Source: Niastella koreensis GR20-10
Lineage (GTDB): Bacteria > Bacteroidota > Bacteroidia > Chitinophagales > Chitinophagaceae
Direction of reading: 5' to 3'
Assembly (NCBI RefSeq): GCF_000246855.1
Contig: NC_016609.1
Location: 1,116,001 to 1,180,000 of the forward strand
DNA: 64,000 bases
In this document: positions 15,501 to 54,915 of the stretch, one piece after another
How the letters are laid out: every line of letters starts with the position of its first letter
Position numbering within the stretch: the stretch's first letter is position 1
Notes under the pieces: model-generated
The model's input: the letters and a program-made list of their open reading frames with translations, nothing else
Told to the model about the DNA's origin: nothing
The model's database searches: none
Translations under genes and position numbers: made by a program

Positions 15501-15780
15501 TCTTACAGGAAAAAGTAATTACCCATCGGGAAATCAGGTTTCCCGATGGGTAATTACTATTCCCGACGGGAAAAAACAAAACCCGGAAGGAATTAAGGAA
15601 AGCCGCTGGGAAATCAAAAAGCCCGGAAGGAAATCCCGTTTCCCGGCGGGAAATCTAAAAACCCGCTGGGAATTCACAAAACCCGGAAGGAATTGAGAAA
15701 ACCCACCAGGAAATAAAAAAAACGGGAAGGAAATCCCTTTTCCTTCCCGGAATTCCCAATTCTTTCAAAGAATTGGTCGT
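15501..15780. repeat. Phased tandem array, exact 20-bp period
   Basis: Units start at 15501 and every 20 bases to 15741, with a decayed unit at 15761. Each holds a 10-base semi-palindromic core close to WCCCGNNGGG, followed by AAAT or AATT and a variable A-rich stretch. Core examples are TCCCGATGGG (15541), TCCCGACGGG (15561), ACCCGGAAGG (15581, 15681) and TCCCGGCGGG (15641). The spacing is kept exactly although the unit sequences differ. No open frame spans it, since 20 is not a multiple of 3. Confidence 0.93.
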
Positions 15781-16121: not shown

Positions 16122-17150
16122 ATGAAATTTGAGGTTGGCGATAAGGTTGTGGTGAATCAAACGAATGAGGAAGGCGAAGTGATAGACATCATTAACGATA
16201 AAATGGTGATGGTAGAAGTGCGTGGGGTTAAATTTCCCGCTTACGTAGATCAGCTGGATTTTCCATATTTCAAGCGTTTTACCGAGAAAAAGCTGTTCCC
16301 GCCAAAAAAAGAGAAGACGTTTATCGATAATGTGCCCAAAGAAAAGAAAAAGATCATTCAGCGGGTGGTTGATGGGGTATGGCTTACTTTTATTCCCATA
16401 AGCGTGAATGATGAATTTGGCGACGACATTGTAACCGAATTAAAAGTTCACCTGGTAAACAGGACCGAACTGGATTATAAGTTTACTTATAAGCTGAGTT
16501 ATTTAGGCAACGAAGATTTTGAGCTGGTAAATTCTATCAGGGCGTTTGAAGATTTTTACCTGCACGATGTGCCGTTTGAAAATCTGAACGACAGTCCGGT
16601 TTTTAGTTTTGAGTTTTCCCTGGTTCAACCACTTAAACTCAAGGCCGATTATTATGAGTCTACCCTTAAGCTGAAGCCCAAACAGGTATTTACGCGCATT
16701 GAAGAAGTGCGCAAAAAAGGGGAGGCTACCTTCTCGTATAAGTTGTTCGAGGAGTATCCACCGCGGCCATACGAAGATAAACCAACAGGGCTCGACCTGT
16801 CGAGCCTGGCAAATGCCGGGTTTAAAATCTACGATGCCTCGAAGGTTCGTCAAAACCTGGAGCCGGCAAAAACGGAGCTCGATCTGCATATAGAAGCGCT
16901 CACGCCTGCCTGGGAGTCCATGAGCAACCTGGAGATCCTGAGTCTTCAGCTAAAGACCTTTGAAAAGTATTTCGATCTGGCCATAGTGCATCACCTTCCC
17001 TGGATGATCGTCATTCACGGGGTAGGCACTGGGAAGTTGCGGGATGAGATTCATGAAATAATCAGGTTACGCAAAGAAGTGAAAAGCTTTGCCAACCGTT
17101 ACCATCCCGCCTATGGTTATGGCGCAACAGAAATATATTTTGGGTATTGA
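16122..17150 (+). CDS. DUF2027 and Smr domain protein
   Basis: This 342-residue protein starts with a small beta-barrel region (FEVGDKVVVNQTNEEGEVIDI) like the DUF2027 N-terminus. A middle beta-rich region follows. The C-terminus has a Smr domain (ELDLHIEAL near residue 247, IVIHGVGTGKLRDEIHEIIR near residue 298), the domain found at the end of MutS2, where it has endonuclease activity in some proteins. The exact role in Bacteroidota is unknown; nucleic acid binding or cleavage is likely. I chose the ATG at 16122 because the longer frame begins inside the heptamer array. The RNase P RNA gene follows 14 bases after the stop. Confidence 0.86.
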   Translation: MKFEVGDKVVVNQTNEEGEVIDIINDKMVMVEVRGVKFPAYVDQLDFPYFKRFTEKKLFPPKKEKTFIDNVPKEKKKIIQRVVDGVWLTFIPISVNDEFGDDIVTELKVHLVNRTELDYKFTYKLSYLGNEDFELVNSIRAFEDFYLHDVPFENLNDSPVFSFEFSLVQPLKLKADYYESTLKLKPKQVFTRIEEVRKKGEATFSYKLFEEYPPRPYEDKPTGLDLSSLANAGFKIYDASKVRQNLEPAKTELDLHIEALTPAWESMSNLEILSLQLKTFEKYFDLAIVHHLPWMIVIHGVGTGKLRDEIHEIIRLRKEVKSFANRYHPAYGYGATEIYFGY

Positions 17151-17317
17151 TTACCTTCGCATTTAACTACAAACCGGGCTATCGCCCTCCCGACTTGTCG
17201 GGAGGGAGGAAAGTCTGGACAGCATAGGGCAATGTACCGGTGAACAGCCGGGTCTTTCCTGATTCGTTGGGAGGGAACAGACAGTGCCACAGAAAATTAC
17301 AGCTTTCATCCGCCTAC

Positions 17318-17333
17318 TCCGCCAGCTGGCGGA
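17318..17333. repeat. 16-bp perfect palindrome, copy 3 of 3, inside RNase P RNA
   Basis: TCCGCCAGCTGGCGGA forms the centre of a 32-base inverted repeat (17310-17341, one mismatch). It lies between the conserved ACAGAAAA and GTAAGAGC blocks, which is the P12 position of the RNA. Confidence 0.85.
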
Positions 17334-17556
17334 GCAGGCGGACTAGTCCCGATTAATCGGGAGAGTGATGGTGAAAACGTGGGGTAAGAGCCCACGGCTC
17401 TGGCAGGTGACTGCCGGGGCGGGTAAACCTTGCATGCTGAAATGCCATGTATACCAGCGTTGAAGGGCGGCTCGTCCGAATTCCTGCAAAGGATACGTTG
17501 GGTGGGTAGGCAGAATGATCCAGTCAGTAATGGCTGGACAAGATAAATGATAGCCT

Positions 17557-17592
17557 CCCGAACTTGTCTTGGCTAGCCAAGACAAGTTCGGG
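17557..17592. repeat. 36-bp perfect palindrome in the P18 position of RNase P RNA
   Basis: CCCGAACTTGTCTTGGCT is followed by its exact reverse complement with no loop base between. It sits just before the conserved CCGGCTTAC block. Confidence 0.9.
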
Positions 17593-17862
17593 ATACAAAA
17601 TCCGGCTTACAGGTTTGTAGTTATTTTTTTATTTATGTATACAGAACGTTTCCAATTCCACGCTCCCCACTTACCATTACTGAGTTATTAACAGTTTTCA
17701 TTTCAGGCATCATTTTTGGATTTTTTGAAATGTTGTACAACACGTTCATTGGTAATTTATCGCATACTCCCTCTCATTAGCACGCGCATCTTTATTTCAA
17801 AAAGTTGATCACTTCCCCTGCCTGTAACTGTGGGCCTATTTGTAAACGTAAAAATTCGCCTT

Positions 17863-20310: not shown

Positions 20311-20328
20311 AACTAAAAACTAATTAGG

Positions 20329-20455
20329 TAATATGATAATTTGATAATGTGATAATGAAATACAGCGCTGCCAGCTTCTGTAAATAAAATAGCTCGCGCG
20401 AAGCACTCACATGAACCGTATTTCATTATCGAATTATCACATTATCGAATTATCA
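20329..20455. repeat. Inverted-arm repeat element with TGATAATG units (copy F)
   Basis: Arms at about 20329-20363 and 20418-20455 are imperfect inverted copies made of TGATAATG/TGATAATTC units. The core matches that of the element at 4244-4383 in the same orientation, sharing CTGTAAATAAAATA and AAGCACTCACAT. The TGA stop of the adjacent minus-strand gene is the last unit of the right arm. Confidence 0.87.
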
Positions 20456-21040
20456 CTTTATTCTTACCGCAATACCTACCTGTATGTGGCTCGATTTCCA
20501 GGTGTAGCGGTCATCAACATTATTAATATCATTAAGGCCTTTCACATAGCGGGCATAAAATCCTACAGTACCCAGGTTTACCTGTGCGCCGGCCGCAGCG
20601 CTTATTTCAGTTGTATTAAATGCCTTTTTACCTTCTTTTATCAGGTCTTCATCTTCATATACCCGGTAACCAAACTGAGGACCGGCCATAAAACTGAGCA
20701 CTTTATTAAGATTGTAACGCGCCAGCACAGGCACGCTGATATAAGCCAGGTTTATATTGGTGCCGGCAGCGCTTCTGCCTGAATTATTATAGTACGTAAG
20801 AAAATCATCTCCCTTTTTATAAGGGTTCCAGGTGTACAACAACTCCGGTTGAATGGCCCAGTGTTTGCCAAAACCTACTTCGGCAAAAGCTCCTGCCTCA
20901 AAGCCGGCTGAATATTTATTCTTCATACCCTCACCTTTAAGGGCAGAGTAGCTTAAAGCGAGTTTGGGACCAAAGTGAAAGCTTTGCGCGTTGGCTACAA
21001 ACGATAACAGCAGTGCAGTACATACCAGTGTATACTTCAT
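20453..21040 (-). CDS. Porin-family outer membrane beta-barrel protein (PorT-like)
   Basis: This 195-residue exported protein has a signal peptide (YTLVCTALLLSFVANAQ) and an eight-stranded barrel pattern. Its segments FHFGPKLALSYSAL, FEAGAFAEVGFGKHWAIQPELLYT, ISVPVLARYNLNKVLSFMAGPQFGYRV and VGFYARYVKGLNDI are the layout of OMP_b-brl_2 (PorT-like) proteins. The function of individual members is mostly unknown. A good promoter lies 28 bases upstream of the ATG, and the transcript runs into repeat element F. Confidence 0.88.
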   Translation of the reverse strand: MKYTLVCTALLLSFVANAQSFHFGPKLALSYSALKGEGMKNKYSAGFEAGAFAEVGFGKHWAIQPELLYTWNPYKKGDDFLTYYNNSGRSAAGTNINLAYISVPVLARYNLNKVLSFMAGPQFGYRVYEDEDLIKEGKKAFNTTEISAAAGAQVNLGTVGFYARYVKGLNDINNVDDRYTWKSSHIQVGIAVRIK

Positions 21041-26718: not shown

Positions 26719-26720
26719 TT

Positions 26721-26814
26721 GTGAGTTGTGAGTTGTCAGTTGTGAGTGGATTCCCGAATGTTCAGAAGTCTAAATAATCGCGAGCTCACTCACAACTGAC
26801 AACTCACAACTGAC
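26721..26814. repeat. Inverted-arm heptamer element (GTGAGTT family, copy C)
   Basis: Arms at 26721-26748 and 26787-26814 (28 bases each) pair with a single mismatch and consist of 7-base units GTGAGTT/GTCAGTT. The 38-base centre (CCCGAATGTTCAGAA ... AATAATCGCGAG) is found in reverse orientation in the element at 27958-28070. Confidence 0.92.
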
Positions 26815-27512: not shown

Positions 27513-27959
27513 ATGAATGATCAACAGTTATGTGGTAAATGGACTGGCACCTATACCTATGGAAATGAATACGATGAGCCGTTAAAAGGCAAAACCGTAT
27601 CTTTTGAAATGGAACTGACCGTTGTTAACGGTTTCATAAAAGGCAGATGCACCGATGCTGAATCAACCAGGCATTTTCAGGCGCCGGCAACTATTGAAGG
27701 AATTATAGTTGATGACAATACAGTCAGATTTGTAAAACGGTATCCGCACTACTGGCAGCACGAAAAGTCAGGCCCGCGCTTTCTGCCAAAATTACCTTCG
27801 CAGGAGATCAATTATTCCGGAGAGTTCGGTAATAACGAATTTGAAGGAGAATGGGAGATCGTTACCGTTCTGGTAGATGCCCATGGGGAAATGGTAAATT
27901 ATAGAGGAGTAGGTAATTGGATTATGAGGAGGGTAGAAGTTGATCAGTTAACTTCGTGA
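27513..27959 (+). CDS. Hypothetical protein, small beta-rich, no signal peptide
   Basis: I do not recognise this 148-residue protein. It has no signal peptide or membrane helix. The pattern of alternating strands (LCGKWTGTYTYGNEY, KTVSFEMELTVVNGFIKGRC, TIEGIIVDDNTVRFVKRY, INYSGEFGNNEFEGEWEIV, GVGNWIMRRV) suggests a lipocalin-like or similar ligand-binding barrel in the cytoplasm. It is transcribed divergently from paralogue 2. Its TGA stop lies at the first bases of the heptamer element that follows. Confidence 0.7.
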   Translation: MNDQQLCGKWTGTYTYGNEYDEPLKGKTVSFEMELTVVNGFIKGRCTDAESTRHFQAPATIEGIIVDDNTVRFVKRYPHYWQHEKSGPRFLPKLPSQEINYSGEFGNNEFEGEWEIVTVLVDAHGEMVNYRGVGNWIMRRVEVDQLTS

Positions 27960-28070
27960 GTAGTCGGTAGTGAGTAGTGAGTTGTAAGTAGTGAGTTGGC
28001 TCGCGATTATTTAGTTTTCTGAACATTCGGGAACCCACTCACTACTGACTACTCACTACTGACTACTTAC
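27958..28070. repeat. Inverted-arm heptamer element (GTGAGTA family, copy D)
   Basis: The left arm of GTGAGTA/GTCGGTA/GTAAGTA units starts inside the stop codon of the upstream gene. The right arm (about 28035-28070) has the complementary CACTACTGACTA units. The centre is the reverse complement of the centre of copy C with only about two differences in 33 bases. Confidence 0.9.
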
Positions 28071-52388: not shown

Positions 52389-52658
52389 ATGACAATGTAT
52401 ACCATAGGATTGACAGCAGCCCTGCTCACCACAGCGGCTTATGTTCCACAGGCTTATAAAACTATCAAAACCAGGTCTGCCGGCGACCTGTCAATTGTTA
52501 CTTTTTCAATGCTTTTTTTGGGAACTATCCTTTGGTTCGTTTATGGGTTGTATATTCACGATACGCCCATCATGCTGGCCAATGGTGTAACGGCCACATT
52601 GTCGGGCATAATTTTTTTTCTAAAAATCGGGTCTTTCAAAAAAAGAAGACGCAGATAA
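52389..52658 (+). CDS. SemiSWEET (PQ-loop) family sugar transporter
   Basis: This 89-residue protein has three transmembrane helices and is the bacterial half-size version of SWEET transporters; it works as a dimer. The first helix has the PQ motif (AAYVPQAYKTIKTRSAGDLSIVTF), helix 2 has WFVYGLYI and helix 3 has NGVTATLSGIIFFLKI with the conserved Asn. The C-terminus is very basic. Sugars or sugar derivatives are likely substrates. It follows the SusC/SusD pair but beyond a terminator. A TATTTTTG box at 52375-52382 is only 7 bases before the ATG. Confidence 0.88.
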   Translation: MTMYTIGLTAALLTTAAYVPQAYKTIKTRSAGDLSIVTFSMLFLGTILWFVYGLYIHDTPIMLANGVTATLSGIIFFLKIGSFKKRRRR

Positions 52659-52668
52659 AAAATATTAC

Positions 52669-53103
52669 ATGAATTTCAGAGAAGCCTCAGTCTCCGATAT
52701 ACCCCAACTGTCGAAAGTACGCCTGGCCGTAAAAGAAAATGCTTTGAGCAACCCGGCATTGGTCACTGAACAGGATTATGTAGATTATTTGTCTAAACGT
52801 GGAAAAGGCTGGGTGTGTGAGCTGGACAACCATGTGGTAGGGTTTGCCATTGGCGACCTGGAAAAACACAATGTGTGGGCCTTGTTTGTACAACCTGATT
52901 TTGAAGGGCAGGGAATTGGCCGTGAACTGCTGATCATGTTATTGGACTGGTATTATAGTCAAACAACCGATACTATCTGGTTAAGTACAGCGCCCAATAC
53001 GCGTGCTGCCGACTTCTATAAAAGTTTTGGCTGGAAGGAAACCGGTAAAATGCCCAATGGAGAATTGAAGTTTGAATTATCTGCAGATGATTGGGGCGTG
53101 TAA
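52669..53103 (+). CDS. GNAT family N-acetyltransferase
   Basis: This 144-residue enzyme transfers an acetyl group from acetyl-CoA to an amine. The motif A region is NVWALFVQPDFEGQGIGRELLIMLLDWY (residues about 65-92, with Q/GxGxG/A), and the late strand is IWLSTAPNTRAADFYKSFGWKETG. The acceptor is unknown. It starts 10 bases after the SemiSWEET gene and is convergent with bioA; the 21-bp phased array lies between them. Confidence 0.9.
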   Translation: MNFREASVSDIPQLSKVRLAVKENALSNPALVTEQDYVDYLSKRGKGWVCELDNHVVGFAIGDLEKHNVWALFVQPDFEGQGIGRELLIMLLDWYYSQTTDTIWLSTAPNTRAADFYKSFGWKETGKMPNGELKFELSADDWGV

Positions 53104-53164
53104 TGTCAATATGCTAATGTGGTAATGTGCTAATAGGCTAGTATAAGTTTTGATGCCGGTATTT

Positions 53165-53374
53165 TCATAGGATCTTACTATGTATTCCTGGGAAATCACT
53201 TTGAAATCCCAGGATTTTATATTGTTTTCCCAGGATTTAGCCCTGTTTTCCCAGGATTTAGCCCTGTTTTCCCAGGATTTCACTATGAAATCCCAGGATT
53301 TTAGATCATTTTCCCAGGATTCTGTTATGTTTTCCTGGGATTTTATACCATTTTCCCAGGATTTCAACTCACTC
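53165..53374. repeat. Phased tandem array, exact 21-bp period
   Basis: Cores TCCCAGGA or its reverse complement TCCTGGGA start at 53186, 53207, 53228, 53249, 53270, 53291, 53312, 53333 and 53354, each exactly 21 bases apart. A decayed TCATAGGA sits one step earlier at 53165. Units at 53186 and 53333 have the inverted core. The 13-base spacers end in AAA or TTT and otherwise vary; only units at 53228 and 53249 are identical. The last unit reaches the bioA stop codon. Confidence 0.95.
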
Positions 53375-54637
53375 TATGGTAGCCAGAATATTAATGATCG
53401 CGTTATGAACTTTATCTAACTGTTCGGCTGTTATACAAAAAGGGGGCATAATGTATACAGTATTCCCCAGCGGACGCAAATACACGCCCTGTGCCAGCGC
53501 TTTACGGGTTACATCCATACCTATCGTGTTCAAATATCCATCACGGCCCGATTCAATTTCAAATGCCATAATGGTGCCAATAGATCGCACGTTCTTCACC
53601 TGCGTTTCAAAGCGTTTATCGGTACTTAATTGCAGAACAAATTGTTGTTGCTGCTCACTGATGCGCGCTATTTGCTGTTGGCAATCCGGCTTCAATAACA
53701 GGTCCATACTGGCCAGGGCAGCCGCGCAGGCGAGGGGGTTGGCCGTGAAAGAATGGCCATGGAAAAATGTTTTGGTGCGGTCATCATCTACATAGGCTGC
53801 GTGGATCTTATCTGTACAGGCAGTAACGCCCAGCGCCATGGTGCCGCCGGTTATTCCTTTCGACAAACAAATAATATCCGGTTTTTCTTCTGCATACAAA
53901 CTGGAAAACAGTTTCCCGGTTCTGCCAAAACCCGTCATTACTTCATCGGCAATACAGATCACGTCTTGCGCATGGCATTGCTGTAACAATTTATTAAGCG
54001 CTGAAGCATCGTAGATATTCATGCTGCCAACTCCCTGTAACAGGGGTTCATAAATAAAACAGGCTATCTCGTCCCAGGGGCCATCGTAGAGGGGCGAATC
54101 CTTAGTGGGCGCATCTGTGAAAATAACATCGAACAGTTTGTCCTGAAAGGCAAGGGTGAACACACTGCGGTTGCTGAGGCTCATGGTGCCAAATGTATCG
54201 CCATGATACGAATGGTTTAACGCCAGGATCTTGTTGCGTTTGCCGTTGCCTTTGTTCCACCAGTATTGCAGGGCCATTTTAACACCCACTTCCACAGCGG
54301 TAGAACCATTATCGGAATAGAATATTTTAGCAAAATCACCTGGTAAAATCTCCAGCAGGCGTTCAGCCAGCCGTACCGCCGGTTCATGGGTGAACCCGGC
54401 AAATATTACCTGTTCCAGGTTTTTGGCCTGTTCATATATTTTTTCGGCGATATAGGGATTGGCGTGTCCGTGAATGGTGACCCACCAGCTGCTGATGGCG
54501 TCGATGTAGGCTTTTCCGTTCTCATCAATGATATATGTTCCGTCGCCTTTTGCCACCGGAATGGGTTCTGGCATCGACTTTTGCGGTGTATAGGGATGCC
54601 AAACTGCTTTTTTATCTCTTTCAATAAGTGTTGCCAT
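53369..54637 (-). CDS. bioA: Adenosylmethionine-8-amino-7-oxononanoate transaminase
   Basis: BioA makes diaminopelargonic acid using SAM as amino donor, the step before BioD. It is a fold-type I PLP enzyme with 422 residues. It shows VWHPYTPQKSMPEPIPV at the N-terminus, ISSWWVTIHGHANP, NHSYHGDTFGTMS, the DEVMTGFGRTG stretch that holds the PLP-binding Asp, and the PLP Lys in CLSKGITGG. I place the start at 54637 (MATLIERDK). The longer frame to 54766 crosses the promoter and is not credible. bioD is 46 kb away. Confidence 0.95.
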   Translation of the reverse strand: MATLIERDKKAVWHPYTPQKSMPEPIPVAKGDGTYIIDENGKAYIDAISSWWVTIHGHANPYIAEKIYEQAKNLEQVIFAGFTHEPAVRLAERLLEILPGDFAKIFYSDNGSTAVEVGVKMALQYWWNKGNGKRNKILALNHSYHGDTFGTMSLSNRSVFTLAFQDKLFDVIFTDAPTKDSPLYDGPWDEIACFIYEPLLQGVGSMNIYDASALNKLLQQCHAQDVICIADEVMTGFGRTGKLFSSLYAEEKPDIICLSKGITGGTMALGVTACTDKIHAAYVDDDRTKTFFHGHSFTANPLACAAALASMDLLLKPDCQQQIARISEQQQQFVLQLSTDKRFETQVKNVRSIGTIMAFEIESGRDGYLNTIGMDVTRKALAQGVYLRPLGNTVYIMPPFCITAEQLDKVHNAIINILATIE

Positions 54638-54644
54638 AGGGCGG

Positions 54645-54675
54645 CAAAGGTAAGTTCTTGAGAGCCTCCCCCCAA
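54645..54675 (-). promoter_or_regulatory. Promoter of bioA
   Basis: The minus strand reads TTG (54675-54673), 20 bases, then TACCTTTG (54652-54645), with the ATG 8 bases further. The transcript would be almost leaderless. Confidence 0.68.
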
Positions 54676-54915
54676 CCCCCTCCGGTGGAGGGGAGTTAGA
54701 CAGCCTCTCAATTAAGTTCTGGTATTCTGATGATCGGTTTCCCTTTACCCTTTGCCCTTTCACCACTGCCTACTTCCTTTCATCTCTGCTTCTACCCTGA
54801 TAATTAGGTATTTATAATAAACGCTATATGAAAATGTCCGAATAAATAATAAACTTGCATTTTCCCAGGTCAATGCAACGGTATGACGTCGATCATTGTC
54901 ACCACATAACTAGAA
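54676..54915. other. Divergent gap between bioA and the ECF sigma gene
   Basis: It starts with a GC-rich hairpin (CCCCCTCC / GGAGGGG, about 54676-54694). It then has a C/T-rich stretch with CCCTTT-type units and an AT-rich part. No convincing promoter was read for the sigma gene. Confidence 0.4.

Follow-up and report, generated by a model that had tools for sequence, protein, structure and literature searches.

Between two genes of Niastella koreensis GR20-10 lies a stretch of about 200 bp in which a short palindrome recurs every 21 bp while the letters in between differ, raising the question of what kind of element keeps such a rhythm. The locus belongs to a 64-kb window, the whole stretch of DNA analysed here (bases 1116001-1180000 of a genome represented by a single contig of 9,033,684 bp). 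The phased array occupies positions 53162..53371 of the window and is composed of ten 21-bp units, each comprising a W3-TCCYRGGA-W3 segment followed by a 7-nt linker. Nine exact TCCYRGGA cores follow one another at 21-bp spacing over 53186..53361 (TCCTGGGA at 53186 and 53333, TCCCAGGA at 53312 and 53354, and further exact cores at 53207, 53228, 53249, 53270 and 53291), seven in one orientation and two reversed, and are preceded in phase by one decayed core, TCATAGGA, at 53165..53172; none of these features is assigned a strand. This layout, along with the identical linkers of the pair at 53228 and 53249, had been described in the initial annotation and is confirmed by the sequence and the unit table. 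Periods of 21, 42, 63 and 84 were detected by TRF, and identity at lag 21 reaches 0.73 in a lag scan. The array sits between convergent genes: on the left, a GNAT acetyltransferase gene (52669..53103, plus strand; PF00583, E=5.3e-15) whose 3' end faces the array, and on the right a class-III aminotransferase gene (53369..54766, minus strand; PF00202, E=4.2e-93), bioA-like by reading, which is read towards it and whose stop codon starts 8 bp past the last core.

A pattern search of the whole N. koreensis genome has revealed eight TCCYRGGA arrays, located at 0.109, 0.321, 0.665, 1.169 (the window array), 2.258, 2.549, 6.075 and 6.621 Mb. The 57 three-core matches obtained with up to two mismatches are exactly the number that eight such arrays yield, and a reversed-pattern control gave no match in this genome. 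Cores are exact in 68 of the 73 units, every one of the 65 core-to-core steps measures 21 bp, unit positions 4, 5 and 11 are invariant, and the arms are 90-100% A/T at every position. A pyrimidine-purine step stands at the core centre in all 73 units (CA 32, TG 32, TA 7, CG 2), with such steps also found at the first (55/65) and last (54/65) step of the linker. The variant TCCTAGGA makes up 4 of the 73 cores, although CCTAGG has no occurrence in 400 kb of sampled N. koreensis DNA, where its Markov expectation is only 1.9. Conservation within an array is uneven, unit-to-unit identity being 0.81-0.94 for cores and falling to 0.33-0.52 for the 7-nt linkers, whereas tandem duplicates arising from mutation alone would be expected to diverge evenly along the unit. 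Ectopic gene conversion has also been considered in N. koreensis; in a set of 65 linkers of 15 nt, only four sequences are present twice, which in this informal test speaks against recent copying.

A symmetric core in which CA and TG are equally frequent, and which is specific to a species yet common to dispersed arrays, could be taken for an array of operator sites bound by a sequence-specific regulator of the neighbouring genes, with no architectural role. Against this, the proteins encoded beside the eight N. koreensis loci do not match one another in blastp, and the flanking proteins that were scanned fall into unrelated Pfam families, with two of ten belonging to none. The loci that carry a different array sequence in another species, described below, would moreover require a swap of regulator. 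The orientation of the neighbours points the same way, since 4 arrays lie between convergent, 12 between co-directional and 3 between divergent genes among 19 arrays for which the contig includes both neighbours (longest-ORF gene calls, classified manually, ignoring ORFs below 84 aa at the array except for a 65-aa gene beside array C30 of N. yeongjuensis), so that many arrays are not at a promoter only. Promoter-like sites between 52600 and 53900 number 7 against 2.6 expected, as consensus matches in A/T-rich DNA, one of them (10/12) lying inside the window array on the minus strand. We regard the operator reading as improbable. The orientation count also speaks against a plain terminator, and placement between convergent genes, which had been suggested from the window array, does not hold as a rule.

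A terminator or 3' stabiliser built of pairing units, acting as RNA, would suit the many arrays found at gene ends, and the window array does fold far better than its shuffles on both strands (z -6.2 and -6.7). Such scores are explained by the self-complementarity of the cores, while the arms behave in the opposite way: complementarity is avoided between arms that face each other over a linker (0.846 of 3 versus 1.074, p 0.0035), and no significant pairing was detected between the arms of a unit (p 0.12) or between neighbouring linkers (p 0.09). No terminator-like site of the intrinsic kind, a GC-rich stem followed by a T run, was found in 52600-53900, against 1.3 expected. Hairpins do not need an exact 21-bp spacing, and the AT cores of related arrays (CATATG, CTATATA) would pair weakly, which leaves the RNA reading with a slim chance. 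An even slighter one, close to nil, is given to a coding origin as heptapeptide repeats, 21 bp being seven codons. Some frames do remain open through an array, such as one of 96 aa in the window. In N. koreensis, however, stops occur in all six frames in five of eight arrays, 24 of 25 arrays from several species are no more open than their column shuffles, and periods of 20 and 41 exist. The one array with fewer stops than its column shuffles is that of G007 at rpiA, and apart from it no frame is both kept open and conserved; the possibility that the region is translated and conserved as protein, raised in the initial annotation as a refutation, thus finds no conserved reading frame behind it. 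This exception, a 21/63-bp array in stretch L177 (800-1450) of G007, has one frame open over about 20 units.

Among ten Niastella genomes, a two-core pattern was detected in two, N. koreensis and N. yeongjuensis (G009), the latter carrying at least six TCCYRGGA arrays in which 42 of 49 steps measure 21 bp and the remainder 20, 41, 42 or 72 bp. No match to the pattern was found in G005, whose distance to N. koreensis is similar to that of N. yeongjuensis, and the three-core pattern with up to one mismatch was absent from all 293 other genomes of the family in a sample that left out G009. Three arrays occupy loci common to the two species (XdhC-MocA, LacI-rpiA and the locus of gene 2257), where the matching neighbour proteins are 77-98% identical, with one gene further off at 53%. 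The 2257 locus is preserved between the two species only in its left gene, in an inverted repeat and in a short segment past it, the right gene having no match; terminator-like inverted repeats precede the array at this locus in three species, as judged by reading. By eye, the linkers at shared loci lack any unit-by-unit correspondence, and in one of the three syntenic pairs (kor664 and C15 of N. yeongjuensis) a gap of about six units is present. An origin as a mobile-repeat product, put forward for the window array, is unlikely given these shared loci and neighbour proteins that are unrelated by blastp, and transposition is left without support. A scan of public genomes with three cores returned at least 118 stretches; among the matches listed, linkers are nearly identical in most, and a majority fall within open frames 100 codons or more in length, so that they say little about the Niastella element. 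Many metagenome-assembled genomes of several phyla with JAIR, JAIS and JAIT accessions, which we take to be of termite-gut origin, contain 21-bp minisatellites with a 14-bp palindrome (L025, L042, L074, L081, L095 and others). Fully palindromic arms were observed among the matches listed in 19 of 54 from these genomes, in none of 60 other matches and in none of four from Niastella.

Related species carry arrays with other cores. In G004 a family with CATATG every 21 bp gives 64 three-core matches at at least eight loci, all 58 steps examined being 21 bp; the same pattern is absent from the other nine Niastella genomes, and its reversed control gave one match on each strand, in G000. Linker centres common to N. 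koreensis and G004 number six against about two expected, but a common linker vocabulary is not claimed, since 300 shuffles reach seven. The G004 arrays include those at rpiA, at the 2257 locus and before an Smr-domain gene, the last two ending at contig ends with four cores seen in each, and G006 has a CTATATA array at the gene-2257 locus. In N. koreensis, the rpiA and 2257 loci carry TCCYRGGA arrays and the Smr locus an array with a 20-bp period.

When the flanks corresponding to six N. koreensis loci were compared in other Niastella, a two-turn array of different sequence was found in 12 of 35, compared with 20 of 2535 random background windows of like length, a flank being counted if its best lag was 20-22, 41-43 or 62-63. 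By locus, these amount to 3/7 at rpiA, 5/7 at MocA, 3/7 at moeB, 1/2 at 2257 and 0/6 at both bioA and Smr; the count leaves out N. yeongjuensis, G004 at the two loci where its contig ends, distant matches at 2257, and G007 at bioA, whose best match reaches only 39% identity. The 2257 and Smr loci entered the comparison after G004 arrays had been noticed at them; without these two, 11 of 27 flanks remain positive. The excess corresponds to a binomial P of 4e-17, or 5e-9 with a fivefold background, values that serve as guides because the species are not independent and the background windows include coding DNA. The comparison of loci between relatives, proposed from the window array, has given a divided answer, with arrays of other sequence at several loci and no conservation at the window's own: no array was found at the bioA locus in seven other species (the six flanks and N. 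yeongjuensis). Since at several loci different species share the location and periodicity of an array but not its sequence, it is probably shape, or evenly spaced protein binding, that matters in these arrays. Two further repeats were observed in G004, a degenerate 42-bp array of another sequence downstream of a second gene-2257-like gene (L249), and a 64-bp exact tandem repeat downstream of moeB, where N. koreensis has a phased array (L304).

A second array of the wider class lies in the window at 15566..15765 (extent from the unit table, no strand assigned), upstream of an Smr-domain gene at 16122. It had been considered to share the design of the first, which is true in part, as its period is 20 and its core, approximately CCCGNNGGGAAA, is looser. 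A search of the genome for CCCGNNGGGAAA occurring twice at about that spacing, with up to three mismatches, found this array and one weak place, against one match for the reversed control. Upstream of the Smr-domain gene in G009, G003 and G002 there are instead arrays of 11 bp, one helical turn, with units of approximately ACATGTACGAG (L231 1100-1300; L233 1050-1250; L237, minus strand), where N. koreensis has its 20-bp array. At 3.2086 Mb, N. koreensis also carries a 42-bp alternating array with AACTGAAA and TTTCAGTT (L148 8598-8874). Elsewhere in the window many degenerate 7- and 8-bp arrays occur (for instance 20321-20461, 26719-26814 and 27956-28067), several of which form inverted pairs tens of bases apart, and Rfam at the gathering threshold reported over the 64-kb window only a bacterial class A RNase P RNA, at 17166-17625.

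Arrays were also sought without any prior sequence, by a scan of lags 12-79 with short periods masked. In 400 kb of N. koreensis outside the window, five arrays were found, four of them at 21 or 42 bp; 380 kb of G007 contained eight, five at 20 or 21 bp (one with a top lag of 60, three times 20), and 400 kb from five other Niastella contained seven, one at 42. Two arrays, both in open frames, were detected in 366 kb from 20 other genomes of the family (one 1.1-kb stretch being skipped), and none in 50 kb of Escherichia coli. When arrays in open frames of at least 130 codons are set aside, the two-turn share is 3/4 in N. koreensis, 2/3 in G007 and 1/4 in the other five Niastella. This mask, which runs from stop to stop, flags some arrays as coding, the 15.5-kb one included; no large gene lies at the latter, whereas L143 and L200 each overlap an ORF, of 183 aa and 167 aa respectively. 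Four arrays in 400 kb, when extrapolated, suggest a total of perhaps some tens for N. koreensis. The window array is accordingly one member of a class, as the initial annotation had supposed, with further two-turn arrays both in its own genome and in related ones.

Predicted curvature was calculated with two wedge models, using angle values from the literature. Under both, none of the eight N. koreensis arrays ranks below the 99.3 percentile among 303 intergenic windows. Because a 21-bp period alone yields some coherence, columns were permuted alike in all units, and the mean curvature of the eight arrays was exceeded by none of 500 such permutations in either model; single arrays were exceeded by 0/500 in one model and 0-6/500 in the other. 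All six N. yeongjuensis arrays are at the 100th percentile of 1092 windows and are reached by 0-1 of 300 permutations. A/T power at 10.5 bp lies above the 99th percentile in six of the eight N. koreensis arrays, those at 6.075 and 6.621 Mb being the other two. In the wider class, the 15.5-kb, L152, L205, G001 rpiA and G007 rpiA arrays are not exceptionally curved, and the mocA arrays of G008, G003, G001 and G002 have low or model-dependent curvature. The 3.208-Mb, G004 and G006 arrays are curved above most windows and do not surpass their own column permutations in the second model (67-275/500), the 42-bp alternating array at 3.2086 Mb doing so in one model only and array C253 of G004 in neither. 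Since several arrays of the wider class, including the 15.5-kb one, are unexceptional, phasing is more general than curvature. The combination of A/T tracts in helical phase with a predicted bend above background, which characterises phased A-tracts, is found in the TCCYRGGA arrays and in part of the wider class.

The main rival to an architectural role is a mutational origin, in which a habit of replication or repair would generate degenerate tandem repeats at particular places between genes, preferring units of 7, 8, 14, 16 and 21 bp and serving no function. The same genomes do contain many degenerate 7/8-bp arrays, arrays appear and vanish between species, one G004 locus carries a plain 64-bp exact tandem, and the gap of about six units in one of three syntenic pairs is the kind of unit-length indel between relatives that a neutral minisatellite would display. 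At a looser threshold of 0.5, lags of 14, 16 and 28, belonging to 7/8-bp repeats, make up 14 of 32 noncoding arrays, and lags of 21, 22, 42 and 60 another 13. Apart from the multiples of 7 and 8 bp, it is lags near two turns and their multiples that recur, other lags between 12 and 79 occurring once each. To this must be added the uneven divergence along the unit, the sharing of one core by eight dispersed loci with differing linkers, and the column permutations, which mark the unit layout as special for bending. On balance, a purely mutational product seems unlikely, if still a serious contender.

None of the known repeat families considered passed all its tests. To our knowledge, phased A-tract clusters contain neither a recurring palindromic core nor a unit of exactly two turns, and their dispersed loci do not share a core; intrinsically curved intergenic DNA of prokaryotes was reportedly treated by Kozobay-Avraham in 2006. 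The resemblance to such clusters lies in intergenic A/T tracts at the helical period with a predicted bend, as far as the accessible part of the source goes (Tong and Mrazek, PMC3940949); the Niastella class differs in that not every array is strongly curved. CRISPR arrays consist of near-identical repeats of at least 23 bp with unique spacers of similar length, whereas the Niastella unit is 21 bp long and its linker 7 nt. Phased sites of about 20 bp on one face of the DNA are likewise found in iterons and operator arrays, but the Niastella arrays occupy at least eight dispersed loci per genome with no neighbour protein common to the N. koreensis loci. BIMEs are palindromic repeats alongside REP; in place of a palindrome of 20-40 bp, the Niastella unit is a 14-bp near-palindrome, often with TTT...TTT arms, set in phase with 7-nt linkers. 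The likeness to REP and BIME, from what is accessible of the source, concerns short palindromes between genes, often at gene ends, numerous per genome and variable between species (PMC3733652). TAACTGA heptamer repeats, on a similarly partial view of their description, also form many intergenic direct-repeat arrays (PMC4679880), and Niastella has 7-bp arrays as well; the unit discussed here measures 21 bp and combines a conserved palindrome with linkers that vary freely. Similar in mode of action is the pinning of plectonemes by curved DNA. In the accessible part of the report, intrinsic curvature alone is shown on single DNA molecules to pin supercoil tips, a bent segment some 70 bp long fixing the tip, and pinning is placed upstream of prokaryotic promoters (Kim et al., 2018, PMC6301789); from the same part, pinning appears as a physical effect, as opposed to a repeat family.

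These observations lead us to propose, as the best explanation and one that could well be correct without yet being probable, that the array is an architectural element acting at the level of DNA, in which a putative dimeric protein contacts one face of bent DNA at intervals of two turns. As read from the sequence, palindromic cores recur every 21 bp, corresponding to two turns of B-DNA, with A/T arms at intervals of about 10.5 bp and pyrimidine-purine steps lying between these arms, with nearly free linkers and with fixed intergenic loci in several species; for the TCCYRGGA family, calculation predicts that the segment of about 200 bp is strongly and coherently bent. A putative dimeric protein of nucleoid type would sit on each core, placing about ten dimers on one face, and the aligned dimers would wrap the DNA or stabilise its bend, giving a fixed kink, a plectoneme tip or a boundary between neighbouring genes. 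The core preference of this protein would drift between species. Linkers would drift freely because only phase and bend matter in detail, and each family would have one core, shifting between species together with the protein, because the same protein would serve all arrays of a cell. A conserved palindrome, two-turn spacing, free linkers, a single core for all the dispersed loci of a family, and its replacement between species at an unchanged place and rhythm fit cooperative dimer binding on one face of bent DNA, with an architectural role where genes meet.

A bolder and rather doubtful extension is that these arrays are a bacterial counterpart of satellite DNA, with conserved loci and a kept architecture (two-turn phasing, often with a strong bend), with each lineage exchanging the sequence family as a rapidly evolving dimeric protein that organises the chromosome changes; as far as searches show, they would be the first bacterial loci conserved by helical phase and not by sequence. 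A description of such arrays was not found in the open-access literature, and one study, in its accessible part, describes as not clear what role helical periodicity plays in prokaryotes (PMC3940949). Sequence searches are blind to an element of this kind, in which location and helical phase persist and the letters do not. If the arrays are functional, they would constitute natural replicated experiments, with the same locus, another sequence and the same phase, on whether shape alone can organise bacterial chromosomes; if they are mutational, they would point to a process generating repeats whose unit length follows the helical period.
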